Below the pieces are notes generated by a model. That model was not told the origin of the DNA, did not search any database, and saw only the letters and a program-made list of their open reading frames with translations. Shown piece by piece: positions 644 to 9,020 of a stretch of 9,020 nucleotides of DNA. The position numbers were made by a program, and so were the translations under genes. This stretch comes from Deltaproteobacteria bacterium RIFOXYA12_FULL_61_11. GTDB taxonomy: Bacteria > Bdellovibrionota_F > JAHFAK01 > YA12-FULL-61-11. The stretch lies in assembly GCA_001799195.1 (NCBI GenBank), contig MGSU01000089.1, positions 4,073 through 13,092 of the forward strand, written 5' to 3'. How positions within the stretch are numbered: position 1 is the first letter of the stretch; the number at the start of each line of letters is the position of its first letter.

Positions 644-1072
644 ATGTCGAACAACAAGCTCTACGTCGGTAACCTCAACTACTCCACGACCAAGGAAGAC
701 CTCATGACCCTCTGTTCCCAATTCGGCCCGGTCGTCGAGATCAAGCACTTCGAGAACAAAGGGTTCGCCTTCGTCGAATTCGAGAACGAGGAAGCCGCCG
801 AACAAGCCAAGGCCGCGCTCGATCACCAGGAATTCATGGGCAGGAATCTGCGCGTCGACGAAGCCCAACCGCCGCAGAAGCGCGAGGGCGGTTCCCGGGG
901 TGGTTGGGGCCGCGGAGGCGAACGCGGGAATGACCGCGGCAACGACCGCAACTGGGGTAACGACCGTGGTGGTAACGACCGCAACTGGGGCAATAACCGC
1001 GGCGGCAACGACAGTAACTGGGGCAACGATCGCAATGGGAACCGCGGCGGCAACGACCGCGGCTGCTACTGA
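644..1072 (+). CDS. Glycine-rich RRM RNA-binding protein
   Basis: A 142-residue cytoplasmic protein with one N-terminal RNA recognition motif (about residues 4-74) and a disordered tail. RNP2 is LYVGNL (6-11) and RNP1 is KGFAFVEF (39-46), both exact, with the aromatic residues that stack on RNA bases. The beta2-beta3 loop is very short: RNP1 follows almost directly after VEIKHFEN. From about residue 80 the tail is Gly/Asn/Arg/Asp-rich and includes three 11-residue repeats (99-131), ending in Gly-Cys-Tyr. Small RRM proteins with Gly-rich tails occur in cyanobacteria and several proteobacterial groups, often linked to cold or stress responses; that role here is inference. The ATG at 644 follows GGAG at 633-636 with 7-nt spacing. 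It appears to be a single-gene unit, with 127 nt before the next gene. The family is secure; RNA targets are unknown. Confidence 0.93.
   Translation: MSNNKLYVGNLNYSTTKEDLMTLCSQFGPVVEIKHFENKGFAFVEFENEEAAEQAKAALDHQEFMGRNLRVDEAQPPQKREGGSRGGWGRGGERGNDRGNDRNWGNDRGGNDRNWGNNRGGNDSNWGNDRNGNRGGNDRGCY
938..1036 (+). repeat. Three tandem 33-bp repeats in the RRM protein tail
   Basis: Three in-frame 33-bp units at 938-970, 971-1003 and 1004-1036 encode GNDRNWGNDRG, GNDRNWGNNRG and GNDSNWGNDRN. A degenerate remainder follows to 1066. The units differ mainly by synonymous or Asp/Asn changes. This is a coding minisatellite that could vary in copy number between strains. Confidence 0.88.
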
Positions 1073-1668: not shown

Positions 1669-3612
1669 TTGCACCCCTGCCTCTCCACCTTTGCGTTCCT
1701 GACTTCCCTCCTGCTCAGCGCCTCGAACTCCGGCGCCGAGGTCCGACCCCCAGCCGAGAACTCCTCAGAACTCGACGCCCTGCTGCACGCCGCGAGCCTG
1801 CCCGAGGTCTTCGCCCATCCTGCCTGGCTGCACGTGGGCCACTGGCGCAAGACGGCTTTGGGGGGCTACGAGAGCGAGCAGGATTCTTCTTCCTTCTTCC
1901 TCTCGACCAGAGGCCGCACCGATCCTCGGGCCGAACTGCAGGCGACCTTGAGGGCCTTCCACGCGCCCTTGGCCCCCGACGAAGTGGCCGACTACCACCC
2001 GCGCTGCCACTACCCTGCACGCGAGCTGGTCCTGCGTTCCCTGCTCCGCCTCGACCCCGACCGACTGCCCCAGGTTTCCTGCCGACACTACCAACGGTGG
2101 AGAGAGAAGCTCGACGTGAACCGCCTCGAGCTGGTGTTCGCTTCGTACTATTTCGGCAACCCGTCCTCGATGTTCGGCCACACCCTGCTCAAACTGCGGC
2201 GCGGCCCGAAACAGCCGGACTTAACCGACCAATCGGTCAACTTCTCGGCCAACACCGGCGACGCGGGGACGGTGTGGTATTTCGTGGGCGGCATCTTCGG
2301 CGGCTTCACCGGGACCTTCTCCCTGCTACCCTACTTCGCCCGCGTGTTCGAGTACAACCACCTCGAACAGCGCGACCTGTGGGAATACCCCTTGGCCCTG
2401 ACCCCCTTGCAGCTCGACCTCGTTCTCGGCCATCTCTGGGAACTCGGCGAAGGCACCTGGTTCGACTACTTCTTCTTCACCGAGAACTGTTCCTACCACC
2501 TCCTCGGCCTGGTCGAGACCGCGGTACCGGGACAGGGCTTGACCGAGAGCTTCGGCCTCTGGACCGTCCCCATTGACACCATTAAGGTCCTACAACGCAG
2601 GACCGACGTGGTGGGCAAACCGCACTGGCGCCCCTCGCTGAGGCGACGCTTCGAGCATCAACTCGCCCTCCTGCACACCCCCGAGCGCGCGATGTTACCA
2701 GAACTGCTCGCCCCCGACCGGGTCCTCCCCCTGACCGCCTTGGCAGCCTTACCCCCGGAACGGCGGGTTCCCCTACTCGACGCCGCGTTGGAATACCTGA
2801 CCTACGACCACGGCCGGAGTCTCCAGGCCCAACGGCCCTTGCCGGAACTGGAAGCGCTCCGTGAACGTCTGAGACAGCTCGGCCACTTCCGTGCCGAGTT
2901 GCCCGCGGCCGCGAGTTCGGCTCCACCCACGCCCTCGTCTACGCCGGAGCAACTCCACGAGACCTCGCGGCTGGCTCTCTCCACCGGTTCCCAGCACAGC
3001 GCCCCCTTCTTGGGCCTACTGCTCCGACCCTCCTTCCACGATCTCCTCGCGCGTCCGGCGGGTTTCGACCCCCACGCCCAGTTCATCGGCGGCGAAACGG
3101 AAGTACGCGTATTCCCCCAACAGAGTTCCCTGATGCTCCGGCGGCTCGACCTCCTGTCCCTTTACTCCCTGCAACCCATGAGCGAGTATTTCCTCTTCCC
3201 GTCTCATCTCGTCGAGCTGGGGATTGCCGGCCGTGGGCCCCTCACCGACCTCTCCGCCCACGAACTCCACCTGCGTTGGGGCCGAGGGGGAGCCCTGGCC
3301 TTGTTACCCGGTGGCGGAGCTACCGCCTACCTGATGCCAGGCTTCACCGTGCGGGCCGATCCCCGCGATCGCTGGGCATTAAGGGGAGGGATCGGCACCC
3401 ATGCAGGTCTCCTGCTGGGGCTTCCCCGGCATAGTCGCCTCTTGGCCTCGACCCGGTATCACTGGGTACCGTGGTCCCACCACCGACATGACGCCGAGTT
3501 ATCCCTGGGTGGGAATGTGCCTGTCACCACAAATACCGAACTCCGCCTGCATGCCACCTGGTCGACCTTCGTCGGCCTCGAGGGCATTCTCTCGGGCGCC
3601 TGGTATTTCTGA
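1669..3612 (+). CDS. DUF4105 / Lnb-type periplasmic domain protein with C-terminal barrel-like region
   Basis: A 647-residue exported protein. Residues 1-22 resemble a signal peptide, though its n-region has no Lys or Arg. Residues 30-130 are a helical domain with the conserved CHYPAR (Cys113). Residues 145-300 form the DUF4105 core: NPSSMFGHTLLKL with His171, and FTENCSYHLL with Cys274. These are the invariant residues of the family and a plausible catalytic His/Cys pair. The family is named after Lnb, a lipoprotein N-acyltransferase of Bacteroides, so acyl transfer in the periplasm is a reasonable but untested guess. After a Pro/Ser linker near 410-430, the last 200 residues alternate in beta-strand fashion and end in Trp-Tyr-Phe, the terminal aromatic typical of outer-membrane barrels. 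Start: TTG at 1669 is the only start giving a leader peptide. No Shine-Dalgarno is visible and it lies 7 nt after the DUF3015 stop, suggesting translational coupling. Confidence 0.88.
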   Translation: MHPCLSTFAFLTSLLLSASNSGAEVRPPAENSSELDALLHAASLPEVFAHPAWLHVGHWRKTALGGYESEQDSSSFFLSTRGRTDPRAELQATLRAFHAPLAPDEVADYHPRCHYPARELVLRSLLRLDPDRLPQVSCRHYQRWREKLDVNRLELVFASYYFGNPSSMFGHTLLKLRRGPKQPDLTDQSVNFSANTGDAGTVWYFVGGIFGGFTGTFSLLPYFARVFEYNHLEQRDLWEYPLALTPLQLDLVLGHLWELGEGTWFDYFFFTENCSYHLLGLVETAVPGQGLTESFGLWTVPIDTIKVLQRRTDVVGKPHWRPSLRRRFEHQLALLHTPERAMLPELLAPDRVLPLTALAALPPERRVPLLDAALEYLTYDHGRSLQAQRPLPELEALRERLRQLGHFRAELPAAASSAPPTPSSTPEQLHETSRLALSTGSQHSAPFLGLLLRPSFHDLLARPAGFDPHAQFIGGETEVRVFPQQSSLMLRRLDLLSLYSLQPMSEYFLFPSHLVELGIAGRGPLTDLSAHELHLRWGRGGALALLPGGGATAYLMPGFTVRADPRDRWALRGGIGTHAGLLLGLPRHSRLLASTRYHWVPWSHHRHDAELSLGGNVPVTTNTELRLHATWSTFVGLEGILSGAWYF

Positions 3613-3689
3613 AGCCCCTCCTGCTGCAAAAGCCCGTCCGTTGGAGTATCCTCTACCTCGAAGCCCTGCACCGTGACCGGCTCGACTGC

Positions 3690-4559
3690 ATGAAGTACGC
3701 ACAACCCAAACCCCATCACTCCGCCTCCTCCCTGCTCATGACCTTCGCGTTCGTCCTGGGCTGGGCCTGCTCCGACCCCATCGAACCGGCCTACCAGGAC
3801 TACCAAGCCCCTGCCCCCATTCCCGACCCGACGCCCGAAGAACCCGACCCAGGAGTAACCCGTCCGGATCGGCCTTCCATCGCCACCAACGACCTACCGC
3901 AAGGCGAATTACCGACCGCACCCGAGGTCAACCCGGCCCCTGTCGCACTCCCGACCGAACCCCTCACCCCGGTCGAACAACCACCCGCACCGGTCACTCC
4001 GCCGCCCGAGCCGACCTCGCCGCCGCCGCACAAGGTCTATCTGATAGGTGATTCCCTCATGGTCGGCGCGACCAACGCCGCCAAAGCAGCCCTGGAGCAA
4101 GAGTACGAGCTCACCATCCACGCGAAGGTCGGCGACAGCGTCAGCAAACGTATGCCCTATATAGAAGAAGCGGCCCGCGAGGGAGCCGAGGCGGTGATCA
4201 TCCAGCTCGGCATCAATGACGTGGGCGGGGGGTGCCCGGTGGCCGAGAGCACCATGCACTCACGGATCGGGCAAGCCCTCGACACCGTGGCCGCGGCTCG
4301 TTGCGTGTTCTGGGTCAACTCCCAGGAGCGCTACGTCACCGGACCGTACGCCGCAAAACTGAACTGCTCGGCCCCCGTGCTCAACCGTATCATCGCCGAG
4401 GAAGTAGAGAAACGCGACAACGCCGAGTTGGTCGACTTCCGCGCCACCATGGACGCCGACCCGGGTTCTCTCAACAGCGGCGACGGACTTCACCTGAACT
4501 CAGCGGGCATGCAGGCCGCGGCCGAGGCCTATCGCAACGCCCTGGCTTCGTGCCGCTGA
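3690..4559 (+). CDS. SGNH/GDSL-family hydrolase, probable lipoprotein
   Basis: A 289-residue protein. Residues 1-27 have basic residues, a hydrophobic core and a lipobox-like GWAC, with Cys27 the probable lipid-attachment site (Trp at -2 and Gly at -3 are not ideal). Residues 28-115 are a proline-rich stalk. Residues 115-289 are an SGNH hydrolase domain: block I GDSLMVG with nucleophile Ser122, a GIND block (Gly174, Asn176, Asp177), and block V DGLHLN with Asp265 and His268. The catalytic set is complete. Relatives act as esterases, deacetylases or acyltransferases on carbohydrate, peptidoglycan or lipid; the substrate cannot be read from sequence. Cysteines in the domain could form disulfides. 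The start ATG lies 77 nt after the DUF4105 stop with no good Shine-Dalgarno or terminator between, so co-transcription is possible but not shown. An ATG at 3738 would remove the basic n-region. Confidence 0.9.
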   Translation: MKYAQPKPHHSASSLLMTFAFVLGWACSDPIEPAYQDYQAPAPIPDPTPEEPDPGVTRPDRPSIATNDLPQGELPTAPEVNPAPVALPTEPLTPVEQPPAPVTPPPEPTSPPPHKVYLIGDSLMVGATNAAKAALEQEYELTIHAKVGDSVSKRMPYIEEAAREGAEAVIIQLGINDVGGGCPVAESTMHSRIGQALDTVAAARCVFWVNSQERYVTGPYAAKLNCSAPVLNRIIAEEVEKRDNAELVDFRATMDADPGSLNSGDGLHLNSAGMQAAAEAYRNALASCR

Positions 4560-4584
4560 ACCTCGTTCCCTTGGACTCTCCAGC

Positions 4585-6045
4585 TCAGTCGATGTGGAAA
4601 ATGTGGAAGGCATAGAGTCGGGTGATCCGTCGCGTGATCGTGGTCAGGCCTTCCGCGGCGAGCTCCAGGGCCTCTTGGCTGTAGCGGATGGTGCTGTCCT
4701 CACCCCGGGCGACAAAACCGTAATTATTGAAAGGATCCGGGTCCAGATCACCCAGCGTGGCATACCCCTTGGGCATGTTGAACAGGACCCCCCCGGTGAT
4801 TGTGGCATCGCCGTGGACCTCGAAGACACGGCCGAGCTCTTGGTCGGGATCTTCTTCGTCCGAACGGGCCATGGCCTGGAAATACCCGCCCCAGGTGAAA
4901 TCGCCGGACACGTCCACGCTGCCGTCCTGGATGAAGACACCGTACCCCTCGACCGGCCCGAGAAATTCGATCACGCCGTCCCCTTCCGCGTAGTTGCACA
5001 GGGCTTCGACGGCAACCTGGGCGGTGCAGCGAGGGTACTTACCCTTCACGACCACGACTACGGGATCGGTCATTGTGCCGAGGACGATCGGCTGGCCCGG
5101 CACGGGCGGAGCTATGCTGAGTTTTCCCCCGCCCGACGCGTCGAACTCGATCAGTTTCTTGCCGGTCAGGTCGAAGGTGGTGGTTTCGGGCGTGATTTTC
5201 ACCACCTGGTGGGCATGGTGTACGTGGGGATCGTACTTCACCGTGTACTCGATGCCGCGGTACTTCTTGCACTTGACCTTGATCCAGTCCAACTCGAGCA
5301 CGGCATCGGCGCCGACCAGGGTTTCCAGACCGCTGACCTGGGGAAGGCTCTCCACGTTGTTCTCGTACCAGGGTTCACCAAAAGTCCCGTTGCTGGCAAG
5401 ACCCTTCTTGTGGTCCGAGGTCGCCGGGGTTCCGTCAAGGAGATGGTTGTTGCCGTTGACCTTGATCTTCTTGACCCCGCCCTCATTGTCGAGATCGATC
5501 TTCACGTTGAAGTTCTTGTACAGGCCATCGTAACAGGCACCGAAGGCCGCGGGGAGCGCGGCCACGGTCTTGGGACCGTAATTGGTCTCCATCTGGACCT
5601 CGACGAAACTGTCCAGCCTCCTGATGACCTCGCTTCCTCTCCACACCCGCACCTCGAGGTGCATCTTGCCGTCGAGGTCTATACCCAGGTCCGCATCGCC
5701 ATCGTCATTGTCGCTGAGGAAGAAATTGAAGGTGTAGTCCTTCAGCGTGCGATGGAAACGCTCGAGGCTCTGGCTGGTGCTCAGGAGCGGGTTGCTCGCG
5801 GCCATATCGGCCATGAGGTTGGCATAATCGGTCTCGTAGCGTGCCGCTATCAGATCCCTCGCCTCCTTCGCCAAGGACATCAGAACAATATCGACATGTT
5901 GCATCGTCGAGAAGCCTCGTTCCGCGCGCTGGTGTTGCTGTGAACCGAGGTAGATCAGACCTCCGGCAGCGCTCAAGAGGGCCAGCAGCACCAATACTGC
6001 CAACAAGGTGAAACCGCGTTCGTTCGATCGGTTCCTGCATTCCAT
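4585..6045 (-). CDS. Large PilX/GspK-like minor prepilin
   Basis: Starting at 6045 the product has 486 residues. Residues 1-34 are a type III (prepilin) leader: a basic n-region, then RG|FTLLAVLVLLALL, so PilD-type cleavage is expected after Gly11. Position +5 of the mature protein is Ala16, not Glu. Lack of Glu5 is typical of tip-type minor pilins (PilX, GspK) that enter the complex first. Residues 35-110 are the helical spine. Residues 112-126 are Asp-rich (SDNDDGDADLG) and may bind calcium. Residues 325-425 are beta-rich with repeated Gly and hydrophobic patterns (VVVVVKGKY; VDVSGDFTWGG; EVHGDATITGG) resembling a beta-solenoid. This is far larger than ordinary PilX proteins (about 200 residues). 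The start is fixed by GGAGGT at 6056-6051, 5 nt upstream. The gene lies 58 nt downstream of the PilW-like gene on the same transcript. The prepilin call is strong; the subtype is inferred. Confidence 0.87.
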   Translation of the reverse strand: MECRNRSNERGFTLLAVLVLLALLSAAGGLIYLGSQQHQRAERGFSTMQHVDIVLMSLAKEARDLIAARYETDYANLMADMAASNPLLSTSQSLERFHRTLKDYTFNFFLSDNDDGDADLGIDLDGKMHLEVRVWRGSEVIRRLDSFVEVQMETNYGPKTVAALPAAFGACYDGLYKNFNVKIDLDNEGGVKKIKVNGNNHLLDGTPATSDHKKGLASNGTFGEPWYENNVESLPQVSGLETLVGADAVLELDWIKVKCKKYRGIEYTVKYDPHVHHAHQVVKITPETTTFDLTGKKLIEFDASGGGKLSIAPPVPGQPIVLGTMTDPVVVVVKGKYPRCTAQVAVEALCNYAEGDGVIEFLGPVEGYGVFIQDGSVDVSGDFTWGGYFQAMARSDEEDPDQELGRVFEVHGDATITGGVLFNMPKGYATLGDLDPDPFNNYGFVARGEDSTIRYSQEALELAAEGLTTITRRITRLYAFHIFHID

Positions 6046-6103: not shown

Positions 6104-6949
6104 TCAGACATCGACAAAGATGCGTTGGCTGAGGCGATAGCCAAAATCCTTACCCTGACGGCGTACACCGAGCTCGAGGATCACTTCCTTGATGGTATTG
6201 CGCAGCTCGAGGGCCACGTTGTCATCACTACCGTCGTTGAACAATCCGGTCGATGAATCATAGAAAACCATTGTGTTATCATCCAACAAGTAGAAGACCC
6301 GGACGTACTCGACCCCTCGCAGCAACACCTCGACCGTACCATCATCGTTGCTGGTACGGTGATCCCCCAGGTTCTGGGTGACCAGACAGTCGAGCTGCCC
6401 GTCCTGGTCACAATCATCATAGGAATACAGGATATTATCCCGCGAAATGGCCTTAAGGGGAACGTGATCCACGACTGTACCCACCTGGTCGGCGGTGCTG
6501 TAGCAATCCGGGTCCGGACTCAGGAGACTCGTCCCAGTCACCACGCCGTCGAGACAGAGTCCCTCGTTGGCCGCGATCTTCCCGTCCCGGTCTTTATCGT
6601 AGGGCTTCAGCGCCAACACCTGGAAAGAAGCTGAGCCCACCGGCAGGATACCGCGAATAGCCGCCACTTCCGTCTCGAGCCGTCCGAGGGCGAAACCATA
6701 GGTATCGGCGCTCTGATCGATCCGAGGGCTGGGATCACTGCCGGCCTGGAAGAGATCCCGGCGTATTTGGTCGAGTACCCGCAAATCGGCAGCCCTGTCG
6801 CTTGCCTCTTCCTCGGCTTGGCTCCACCCCTGATCGAGGGTCGCCCCGGCTTTGATCGCTGCGAGGACGACCAGAGCCCCAAGAAGGAGTCCTAACACCA
6901 ACTCCACCAGGGTGAAGCCGCTCCGGAGGGTAGTCCGTCGTGGTTTCAC
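6104..6949 (-). CDS. PilW/GspJ-like minor prepilin with EF-hand-type loops
   Basis: A 281-residue prepilin. The leader is MKPRRTTLRSG|FTLVELVLG, with cleavage expected after Gly11 and the conserved Glu at mature position +5 (Glu16). A hydrophobic helix runs to about residue 34, followed by an amphipathic spine and a globular C-terminal domain. The size and the FxQAGSDP segment after RRDLF resemble PilW or GspJ-type minor pilins. Unusual: residues 118-129 (DKDRDGKIAANE) fit the 12-residue EF-hand calcium loop exactly, and residues 179-190 (DCDQDGQLDCLV) are a second DxDxDG loop. Cysteines 132, 149, 180 and 188 flank these loops and may pair. The start is GTG, with GAGGAG at 6960-6955; the start and the upstream stop overlap as GTGA, so translation is coupled to the PilZ-like gene. 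Prepilin identity is secure; PilW versus GspJ is not resolved. Confidence 0.9.
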   Translation of the reverse strand: MKPRRTTLRSGFTLVELVLGLLLGALVVLAAIKAGATLDQGWSQAEEEASDRAADLRVLDQIRRDLFQAGSDPSPRIDQSADTYGFALGRLETEVAAIRGILPVGSASFQVLALKPYDKDRDGKIAANEGLCLDGVVTGTSLLSPDPDCYSTADQVGTVVDHVPLKAISRDNILYSYDDCDQDGQLDCLVTQNLGDHRTSNDDGTVEVLLRGVEYVRVFYLLDDNTMVFYDSSTGLFNDGSDDNVALELRNTIKEVILELGVRRQGKDFGYRLSQRIFVDV

Positions 6950-8352
6950 AGCAACTCCTCGTGAGAGAGAGCGGACCGAAGACGCTCCAATCTTCGTTCG
7001 AAGCCGCTGATCTTGCGAGTCAGCATGCGACGGATCGCCTGGTCGTCCGCCAAGCGCCAGAGCCTTCGGAGATCCTCGAGATAGCGCGCACCTGCCGTCA
7101 GGAGGAACTGTTGCCGATCGGCGAACTCCGTGGGCCCGAGCAAACGCCCACGCCTCGGAGCCTCTTCGGGGGACAGCACGCGGAACCTCACCGGCCCGAG
7201 GGTAGTGGTCTTGACCGGCTCGAGTTGCTCGGCCCTGCCACGGAACCGGTCATTGTAGTCCCGAACCCGGCGCAAGAGCGAGGCCTCACCGGATGCTTCG
7301 AAGCCCTCCTCACTCATGTCGAGCGGCCGGATGCCGTCGTGCGCCGCGAGTTCCTCCCCATCCCCGAGGAGGAGCATGGACAAGATAATCGTGCTGAGAG
7401 CCAAGCTCAGGAGCGCGATCCCCAGGACCCAAGGTTTCCGGGTCGGCCTCCTCTTCGGCAGGCAAGGTCGTGGTTCACACACCCCCTGGACCGCAAAATC
7501 CTCCAGCACGACCCGTTCGAGAGGGAAGCGCTGCTCGGCTTCTCCTGTTCCTATAGCTGCTGTTACTTCTTCCGGCTGAGCCGGTCCACTGTCAGTGAGC
7601 GAACCCGAACGTTCAGCTTCTCCTCCGCGTTCGAACTGCTCTTCGAAGCGCAGGCGACGCTGCCGTCTCCCCCTTTCGACAACGGCAGAGACTCCCCGGA
7701 GATGTTGGCGATCGTCGGGTTCGAGCCGGAGGAAGCCCAGGTCCTGTTCCCAAGAAATCGAACTCGGCTGTTCGATCGAGCGCTGGTGTAGGATCGTACA
7801 CCTCAGCGGTCGTTCCCGACCGGTGATCGGATTGTGGAGGTGGAGTATCAGCGGGGTTGTCGGGTCGAGTTCGAGTACTCCCCGCACCCGCGCACCCTCG
7901 GCCTCGAGTTCGAGGAGCCTGACCGGGAGCAGCGTGCCGTTCCCGGTCTCGAGCTGAGCGTGGAGGGCGCTGTCGATCATGCAACCGGATAGCTCTTCGA
8001 GCAGGCCAGAGGCCGGACCGCTCGACAGCACCTCCTCGATACGACCGCGTTGGGTCCCACCGAGGTCCGAGAAGTGGAGAAAGTGCTGGGTCCCGGCTCG
8101 GTCTCCGGGTACGGGTTCCATTGTGGCAACCGGCAGGAGGGTTTCGGCGAGTTCCCCCGGAAAGAGCACCGCCAAGACCGACCCCTCTTGTAAGACCGTC
8201 GCCGAGGAAGTTCGTACTCGACACGCCGAGGGCGAAAGAGCGGTGATTCTGACGGGCACCGACCCATGTGCCATTCTCAAGCATGCCTCCAGACCGAACA
8301 ACACGCGCGGGCGAGGAGCATCGATAGGGCGCTGCGCAGGTGCGATCATCAT
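6946..8352 (-). CDS. Degenerate PilZ-like, single-pass membrane protein
   Basis: A 468-residue protein from the ATG at 8352. Residues 5-108 read like a PilZ domain: an Arg-containing opening (QRPIDAPRPR), an ALSPSACRV strand where PilZ proteins carry D/NxSxxG, and an ending FLHFSDLGGTQRGRIEEVL. Residues 128-226 may be a second PilZ-like barrel. The RxxxR and D/NxSxxG residues that bind cyclic di-GMP are not intact in either, so ligand binding is doubtful. Residues 230-305 are charged and probably disordered. Residues 307-329 are one transmembrane helix. Residues 355-468 are a charged, largely helical tail, probably periplasmic. As first gene of an operon with two minor prepilins, it may couple a cytoplasmic signal or the assembly machinery to the pilin complex (inference). 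TTGGAG lies 5 nt before the ATG. The frame also opens at GTG 8403, but that would place the sigma-54 element inside the gene. Confidence 0.72.
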   Translation of the reverse strand: MMIAPAQRPIDAPRPRVLFGLEACLRMAHGSVPVRITALSPSACRVRTSSATVLQEGSVLAVLFPGELAETLLPVATMEPVPGDRAGTQHFLHFSDLGGTQRGRIEEVLSSGPASGLLEELSGCMIDSALHAQLETGNGTLLPVRLLELEAEGARVRGVLELDPTTPLILHLHNPITGRERPLRCTILHQRSIEQPSSISWEQDLGFLRLEPDDRQHLRGVSAVVERGRRQRRLRFEEQFERGGEAERSGSLTDSGPAQPEEVTAAIGTGEAEQRFPLERVVLEDFAVQGVCEPRPCLPKRRPTRKPWVLGIALLSLALSTIILSMLLLGDGEELAAHDGIRPLDMSEEGFEASGEASLLRRVRDYNDRFRGRAEQLEPVKTTTLGPVRFRVLSPEEAPRRGRLLGPTEFADRQQFLLTAGARYLEDLRRLWRLADDQAIRRMLTRKISGFERRLERLRSALSHEELL

Positions 8353-8387
8353 TCTTGCTCCAAGCCAGAGATCCGGGGGCCTTTCGC

Positions 8388-8402
8388 GCAAGCCTCGTGC
8401 CA
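8388..8402 (-). promoter_or_regulatory. Sigma-54 (RpoN) -24/-12 promoter of the pilin operon
   Basis: The minus strand reads TGGCACGAGGCTTGC, an exact match to the core consensus TGGCACG-N4-TTGC, with GG and GC 12 nt apart. With the C at 8388 as -12, transcription starts near 8376. That gives a leader of about 24 nt containing the TTGGAG Shine-Dalgarno before the ATG at 8352. Transcription would therefore need RpoN and an enhancer-binding activator, as is known for pilA genes of several bacteria. Confidence 0.85.
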
Positions 8403-8435
8403 CTACTTCTTCGAATACTCCGCTTCAACTCTTTG

Positions 8436-8448
8436 TTTCAATTTGTTA
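8436..8448 (+). promoter_or_regulatory. IHF-like site in the sigma-54 control region
   Basis: TTTCAATTTGTTA matches WATCAANNNNTTR at 8 of 9 defined positions, within an AT-rich stretch (8429-8458) that stands out from the GC-rich surroundings. It sits at about -60 to -72 from the predicted start, where IHF usually bends DNA at sigma-54 promoters. A TACAAT hexamer at 8447-8452 (plus strand) overlaps it and could be a weak rightward -10 box instead. The match to this loose consensus is suggestive only. Confidence 0.4.
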
Positions 8449-8520
8449 CAATATCTCATCTCGAGACACCTGCGGAAGAGTGCGCGATTCCGCTCAACCC
8501 GGGGTGCTCGATCGCGTCCA

Positions 8521-8582
8521 CCGAGGTCCGCTACCCGAACCACGACGTACCAACCTCTCACCTCGGCTTCTCCGAAGAGGTG
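8521..8582. promoter_or_regulatory. Inverted repeats, possible activator binding region
   Basis: CACCTC (8559-8564) and GAGGTG (8577-8582) form a 24-bp imperfect palindrome with a further TTC/GAA inner pair. CCGAGGT at 8521-8527 is also inverted against ACCTCGG at 8560-8566. They lie about 145-205 bp upstream of the predicted transcription start, the usual range for enhancer-binding activators of sigma-54. Nothing identifies the binding protein, and a GC-rich region gives such short repeats by chance. No gene is seen between 8353 and 8600. Confidence 0.3.
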
Positions 8583-8600
8583 GAGACACATCCTGTTGGG

Positions 8601-8642
8601 AGCACATAATCTGTCCGGTTTTCTAGCACATAAACTGTCCGG
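8601..8642 (+). repeat. Pair of 18-bp direct repeats at the IS left end
   Basis: AGCACATAATCTGTCCGG (8601-8618) and AGCACATAAACTGTCCGG (8625-8642) agree at 17 of 18 positions and start 24 bp apart, about two helical turns. They sit in the untranslated end of the insertion sequence and are best explained as tandem transposase-binding sites of the terminal region. Confidence 0.8.
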
Positions 8643-8659
8643 ATCGAGGAGGCACAGGA

Positions 8660-8665
8660 GGAGGT
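8660..8665 (+). promoter_or_regulatory. Shine-Dalgarno favouring the GTG start of the transposase
   Basis: GGAGGT ends 6 nt before the GTG at 8672. The in-frame ATG codons at 8690 and 8708 lack a site at proper spacing (AGGAG at 8702-8706 is only 1 nt from 8708). Confidence 0.6.
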
Positions 8666-8671
8666 GCCGAG

Positions 8672-9020
8672 GTGAGGCGGGCAGTATGGATGCAGGAGAC
8701 CAGGAGCATGCGATTTGAAGAGACGTTACGGGGATGGCAAGAGAAGGAGATAACACAAAAAGAAGCGGCCAGACTGTTAGGAGTGGATGAGCGCACTTTT
8801 CGACGGTACCTCAAGAGATACGAGGAGAGCGGCATGGAAGGCTTACAGGACCGGCGGATCAGCGAGCCATCCAAGCGGAGAGCGCCAGGATACGAGGTAC
8901 AGGAGATAGCGGAGAGGTATCGGGCACGGCATCAGGGCTGGAGCGCGAGGCACTATTTTTCATGGTATCGACGCGCAGGAGGGAAACGCAGTTACACGTT
9001 TGTAAAGGAGAGGTTGCAAG
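8672..9020 (+). CDS. ISNCY-family transposase, N-terminal part (3' end outside window)
   Basis: The frame stays open from the stop at 8624-8626 to the window end, giving 116 residues from the GTG at 8672. The N-terminus carries a helix-turn-helix: RFEETLRGWQEKEITQKEAA, then LLGVDERTFRRYLKRYEESG, then the GLQDRR turn and a linker SKRRAP. This is the pattern of ISNCY (and related IS481/IS630-like) DNA-binding domains. The block EIAERYRARHQGWSARHYF and the later SYTFVKERLQ match the conserved region before the DDE catalytic core in ISNCY transposases. The catalytic residues lie beyond the window, so activity cannot be judged. Full-length relatives are about 400 residues. Codon use is less GC-biased than that of the flanking genes, in keeping with acquisition by transfer. 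Family call is fairly strong; subgroup uncertain. Confidence 0.85.
   Translation, partial: MRRAVWMQETRSMRFEETLRGWQEKEITQKEAARLLGVDERTFRRYLKRYEESGMEGLQDRRISEPSKRRAPGYEVQEIAERYRARHQGWSARHYFSWYRRAGGKRSYTFVKERLQ

Follow-up and report, generated by a model that had tools for sequence, protein, structure and literature searches.

The window analysed here is a 9,020-nt stretch of DNA (contig C89:4073-13092) from a 4.64-Mb draft genome of 342 contigs that is 87% complete. Its minus strand carries three genes between 8352 and 4585, the last of which meets a convergent gene. Their products are a membrane protein of PilZ-like type and two minor pilins, and a sequence matching the sigma-54 (-24/-12) promoter core lies upstream of the first gene. 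A gene elsewhere in the window (644-1072, plus strand) encodes an RRM-like RNA-binding protein whose low-complexity tail consists of Asn-Asp-Arg-Gly-Trp repeats. The features of the locus, in the direction of the operon, are:

8601-9020, plus strand: left end of an insertion sequence, with AGCACATAAWCTGTCCGG twice, followed by an HTH transposase and cut short by the end of the contig
8403-8470, minus strand: A+T-rich stretch upstream of the putative promoter, 38% GC against 61% for the genome; possible activator/IHF region
8388-8402, minus strand: sigma-54 (-24/-12) promoter core TGGCACGAGGCTTGC, exact match
About 8376, minus strand: predicted +1, from the geometry relative to the -12 C at 8388
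8358-8363, minus strand: ribosome-binding site TTGGAG, from sequence, 5 nt from the ATG at 8352 and 8 nt from the ATG at 8349
6946-8352, minus strand: gene 1, 468-aa PilZ-like membrane protein (PF07238, E 2e-5, residues 130-219, above the gathering score)
6104-6949, minus strand: gene 2, PilW-like minor pilin (prepilin cleavage G/FTLVE, Glu5 present; N_methyl PF07963; a paralogue is 40% identical)
4585-6045, minus strand: gene 3, PilX/GspK-like minor pilin (cleavage G/FTLLA, no Glu5; weak N_methyl match, E 0.016)

The reading frames and Shine-Dalgarno sites of the operon are intact, and the GTG start of gene 2 overlaps the stop codon of gene 1 (GTGA). By hydropathy and motif checks, the product of gene 1 has two PilZ-like (beta) domains, one transmembrane helix at about residues 309-329, and a helical tail. 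Neither beta domain contains the c-di-GMP motifs RxxxR and [D/N]xSxxG as a pair. Gene 1 appears not to encode a c-di-GMP-binding PilZ protein; it looks like a degenerate PilZ-like protein, so named by profile match only. Class III signal peptides can be read from the sequence of both pilins, the PilW type with Glu5 and the PilX type without it. The N_methyl matches of these pilins are weak and mostly under the gathering score, and the pilin calls therefore rest on the signal sequence, the gene order and the paralogues (gene 3 is 31% identical to its paralogue over 418 aa, E 1e-68). PilX likewise lacks Glu5 in M. xanthus and P. aeruginosa (PMC7541494). The operon is without FimU, PilV and PilY1 partners. 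A search of the genome for PilY1 gave no match, and neither did the controls of that search. Single-sequence structure predictions for the PilZ-like protein (pLDDT 40) and the PilX-like protein (pLDDT 35) were too low in confidence and were not used.

The core at 8402-8388 is the sole copy in the window, where dinucleotide shuffles lead one to expect 0.01. The minus strand reads ...GAAGAAGTAG TGGCACGAGGCTTGC GCGAAAGGCCCCCGGATCTCTGGCTTGGAGCAAGA ATG ATG..., with the GG of the -24 region at 8401-8400, the GC of the -12 region at 8389-8388, and G at -11. The gap between the core and the ATG at 8352 is 35 nt, resembling that at further sites in the genome, many of which lie at 35-40 nt. The original prediction had given a transcription start near 8376, a Shine-Dalgarno TTGGAG and an ATG at 8352, and its coordinates are right: the -12 C is 8388, TTGGAG lies at 8363-8358 and the start codon at 8352-8350. 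It had also described a match to the RpoN consensus at every defined base. This holds for the core, in which all 11 bases of TGGCACG-N4-TTGC are present with exact spacing, but not for the flanks. The published consensus from 186 promoters is mrNrYTGGCACG-N4-TTGCWNNw (quoted in PMC2725144), and both the Y that precedes the core and the W at -11 are G here. The stretch from -11 to +1 is G+C-rich (75%), unlike that of the exact-core sites elsewhere in the genome. We also considered GTG 8403 as the true start of gene 1, which would make the core intragenic. We rejected it; this codon has merely GAAG, too close to it, whereas the ATGs at 8352 and 8349 have GGAG at 5 and 8 nt.

The genome contains an intact rpoN (AID, CBD and DBD domains) and about 28 genes with a good Sigma54_activat domain (bEBPs). 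Genome-wide, there are 15 copies of the exact core TGGCACN5TTGC and 10 of the mirror pattern, a difference too weak to serve as evidence alone. For this reason we used placement instead of count. A site was scored as promoter-placed if it was intergenic, on the correct strand and no more than 120 nt ahead of a gene start, with genes called by a simple codon-usage script. Nine of the 15 exact cores are promoter-placed (eight by the script, plus the site at 8402-8388 via the ATG at 8352, the script having picked a later start); for the mirror pattern the figure is 0 of 10 (Fisher p = 0.0025). A 15-mer put at random would count as promoter-placed at 3.5% of positions, which gives a binomial p of 3e-10 for 9/15. 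Cores with one mismatch show no excess (137 against 172 mirror sites), and their count is not informative. In a draft genome that lacks relatives, mirror-pattern and placement controls can tell true -24/-12 sites from those due to chance. The genes that follow exact cores encode largely proteins to which Pfam gives no significant match, and many of these seem to carry a signal peptide. One exact core stands 40 nt ahead of a gene whose product is a ClpP-like protease (PF00574, E 7e-22) that appears to be exported.

The alternative that survives best is that the core at 8402-8388 is a chance match in intergenic DNA, and that the operon owes its transcripts to some other (sigma-70-type) promoter or to upstream read-through. 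By the mirror control, about 10 chance cores are expected in a genome of this size, yet chance would promoter-place only 3.5% of sites, and the placement of the exact cores differs sharply from this. The base at -11 and the G+C-rich initiation region resemble the class of matches found in coding regions, which are presumably due to chance. Exact-core sites elsewhere in the genome mostly read TTGCT, and TTGCT sites are usually intergenic (17/21) and often promoter-placed (12/21). TTGCG sites, with G at -11, are mostly intragenic. However, even this class is enriched before genes: 4 of 17 TGGCRYN5TTGCG sites, including 8402-8388, are promoter-placed, where about 0.6 would be expected. The four sites all belong to the TGGCAY group (4/7), while TGGCGY sites give 0/10. 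One of them, TGGCATTGGACTTGCG, precedes a gene for flagellin (PF00669, 4e-44), a gene class that is often sigma-54-controlled; fliK is preceded by a TTGCT site. In addition, no sigma-70-like site was found on the minus strand of the promoter region. We consider a chance match unlikely.

A known promoter with G at -11 is that of prxS-rpoN2 in M. loti (ATGGCACGGCGCTTGCG; PMC3538637). Given this example and the promoter-placed sites described above, that of flagellin among them, we conclude that G at -11 is tolerated here. In Salmonella, our own count from the table in PMC3844500 gives A or T at -11 in 27 of the 29 intergenic binding sites. A/T at -11 and a pyrimidine before TGG are preferences and not requirements; G at -11 reduces the odds for 8402-8388 without ruling a promoter out. 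Because four promoter-placed TTGCG sites were observed against the 0.6 expected, we judge that the site is quite likely a real sigma-54 promoter, which is an estimate rather than a measured rate.

The same genome carries a second, diverged PilZ-like/PilW/PilX cassette, at C92:8741-12730 plus C85:11474-13570. On C92, a gene for a GAF-PilB ATPase (8741-11020) is followed after a 38-nt gap by a gene for a PilZ-like membrane protein (11058-12308) with the same layout as gene 1 (PF07238, E 0.0013, slightly below the cut-off). An overlapping pilW, whose product is 40% identical to that of gene 2, is cut off by the end of the contig. C85 opens with the end of a pilW, the part that C92 lacks; next comes a PilX-like gene with 31% identity to gene 3, and the ends of the two contigs would join here. 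The two cassettes share a homologous three-gene core and differ in their upstream regions. The C92/C85 cassette sits behind the PilB-like ATPase gene, and neither its PilZ-like gene nor the ATPase gene is preceded by a sigma-54 element, whereas the 8352-4585 operon has one. That a paralogous cassette does without the element counts in favor of a chance match. A further PilW/PilX-like pair on C12 has no sigma-54 element of comparable strength, and for the pilA-like genes of C339 and C22 there are weak candidates only. The element is specific to the 8352-4585 cassette, which fits separate regulation and fits absent conservation equally well. Beside the PilX gene on C85 are sensor-kinase-like and response-regulator-like genes, as read from their sequences. 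C339 carries four tandem pilA-like genes (2766-5520), three of them near-identical at the N terminus.

No orthologue of the operon turned up in the genomes searched. The 97 other genomes and the GTDB contigs gave no homologue of the PilZ-like gene 1 protein, and the GTDB contigs gave none of the PilX-like gene 3 protein; the relatives compared included a single genome of the same class. An alignment search with PilW across 290 genomes gave distant relatives only, and the PilZ-like gene was absent at the loci inspected.

The DNA upstream of the core is A+T-rich, as it is at many other sigma-54 core sites of this genome. It contains no convincing inverted repeat that could be an activator site, and we found no recognizable activator site for the promoter. 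Some 200 bp upstream of the promoter lies the start of the insertion sequence. Its end contains two direct 18-bp copies of AGCACATAAWCTGTCCGG, which start 24 bp apart, and the contig stops 420 bases into the element. The neighbourhood beyond is thus cut off, and the remark in the original prediction that no dedicated regulator is visible has no evidential value; bEBPs work in trans in any case. An open frame of about 62-64 codons lies at 8403-8597 on the minus strand, and its TAG (8405-8403) directly abuts the promoter core. We rejected it as a truncated upstream gene; its codon score is slightly negative and it has no family match. The frame is possibly the remnant of an upstream gene severed by the insertion sequence.

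It is very improbable that RpoN binds at 8402-8388 with no productive transcription of the operon, either at a remnant severed by the insertion sequence or as a bound roadblock: the insertion sequence does start about 200 bp upstream, where activator sites are commonly found, but 200 bp is still enough for such a site, and the frames and Shine-Dalgarno sites of the operon are intact. Binding of this kind would have parallels in Salmonella, where many RpoN-binding sites lie away from operon starts (PMC3844500). The best reading of the locus, with a probability of roughly 0.77, is that the minus-strand element at 8402-8388 is a true sigma-54 promoter from which the operon 8352-4585 is transcribed. 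The exact core, the intact rpoN and the many bEBPs speak for the RpoN promoter that had been proposed for these genes, and the deviating flanks speak against it.

Several known systems resemble parts of this arrangement. The fimU-pilVWXY1Y2E operon of Pseudomonas aeruginosa, under AlgZR/FimS control, is similar in having co-transcribed minor pilins under the control of a signal; it differs in that its control is not of the sigma-54 type and it has no PilZ-like gene. Promoters of type IV pilus genes that carry a -24/-12 element and depend on RpoN are known in Geobacter sulfurreducens (PMC2725144), Ralstonia solanacearum (PMC4371752) and commensal Neisseria (pilE; PMC6528607). These promoters drive the major pilin, whereas the element here precedes a minor-pilin operon. 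Another parallel comes from M. xanthus, whose pilY1/minor-pilin clusters have been described (PMC7541494). There, HsfA, an NtrC-like regulator, binds directly to the promoters of two minor-pilin operons, pilY1.1 and pilY1.3, and its regulation of the two runs in opposite directions (PMC9109919). The likeness extends to the PilW and PilX types (PilX without Glu5), control by the bEBP family, which is predicted here, and the presence of several differently regulated cassettes per genome. In contrast to the operon here, which has only two minor pilins and the PilZ-like membrane protein, the M. xanthus operons carry fimU, pilV and pilY1. HsfA binding was demonstrated in M. xanthus, whereas the activator here is a predicted bEBP. 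The original prediction had presented RpoN control of such a minor-pilin cassette as less well known than that of pilA. The HsfA precedent shows that control of the RpoN/bEBP type is not new for minor-pilin operons, and the 8352-4585 operon is probably a new case of it.

We postulate that RpoN-RNA polymerase would be held in a closed complex at the -24/-12 region of 8402-8388. A bEBP bound upstream, one of the approximately 28 in the genome, would then open the complex and allow transcription from about 8376. If the promoter is used in this way in vivo, synthesis of a pilus accessory or tip module would come under the control of the signal to which that activator responds, and the products may assemble at the tip of the type IV pilus. 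The proposed "signal-gated" expression of a "tip complex" would be consistent with such a scheme. We speculate further, and with considerable doubt, that the two cassettes could represent two modules, one tied to the GAF-PilB motor gene that precedes it and the other, free of the motor, under an RpoN switch. Signals could then drive the exchange of tip modules, with the degenerate PilZ membrane protein serving as a module-specific adaptor.

These findings leave the understanding of sigma-54 and of type IV pili unchanged. They add a plausible RpoN-controlled minor-pilin operon in a sparsely sampled, uncultured lineage.
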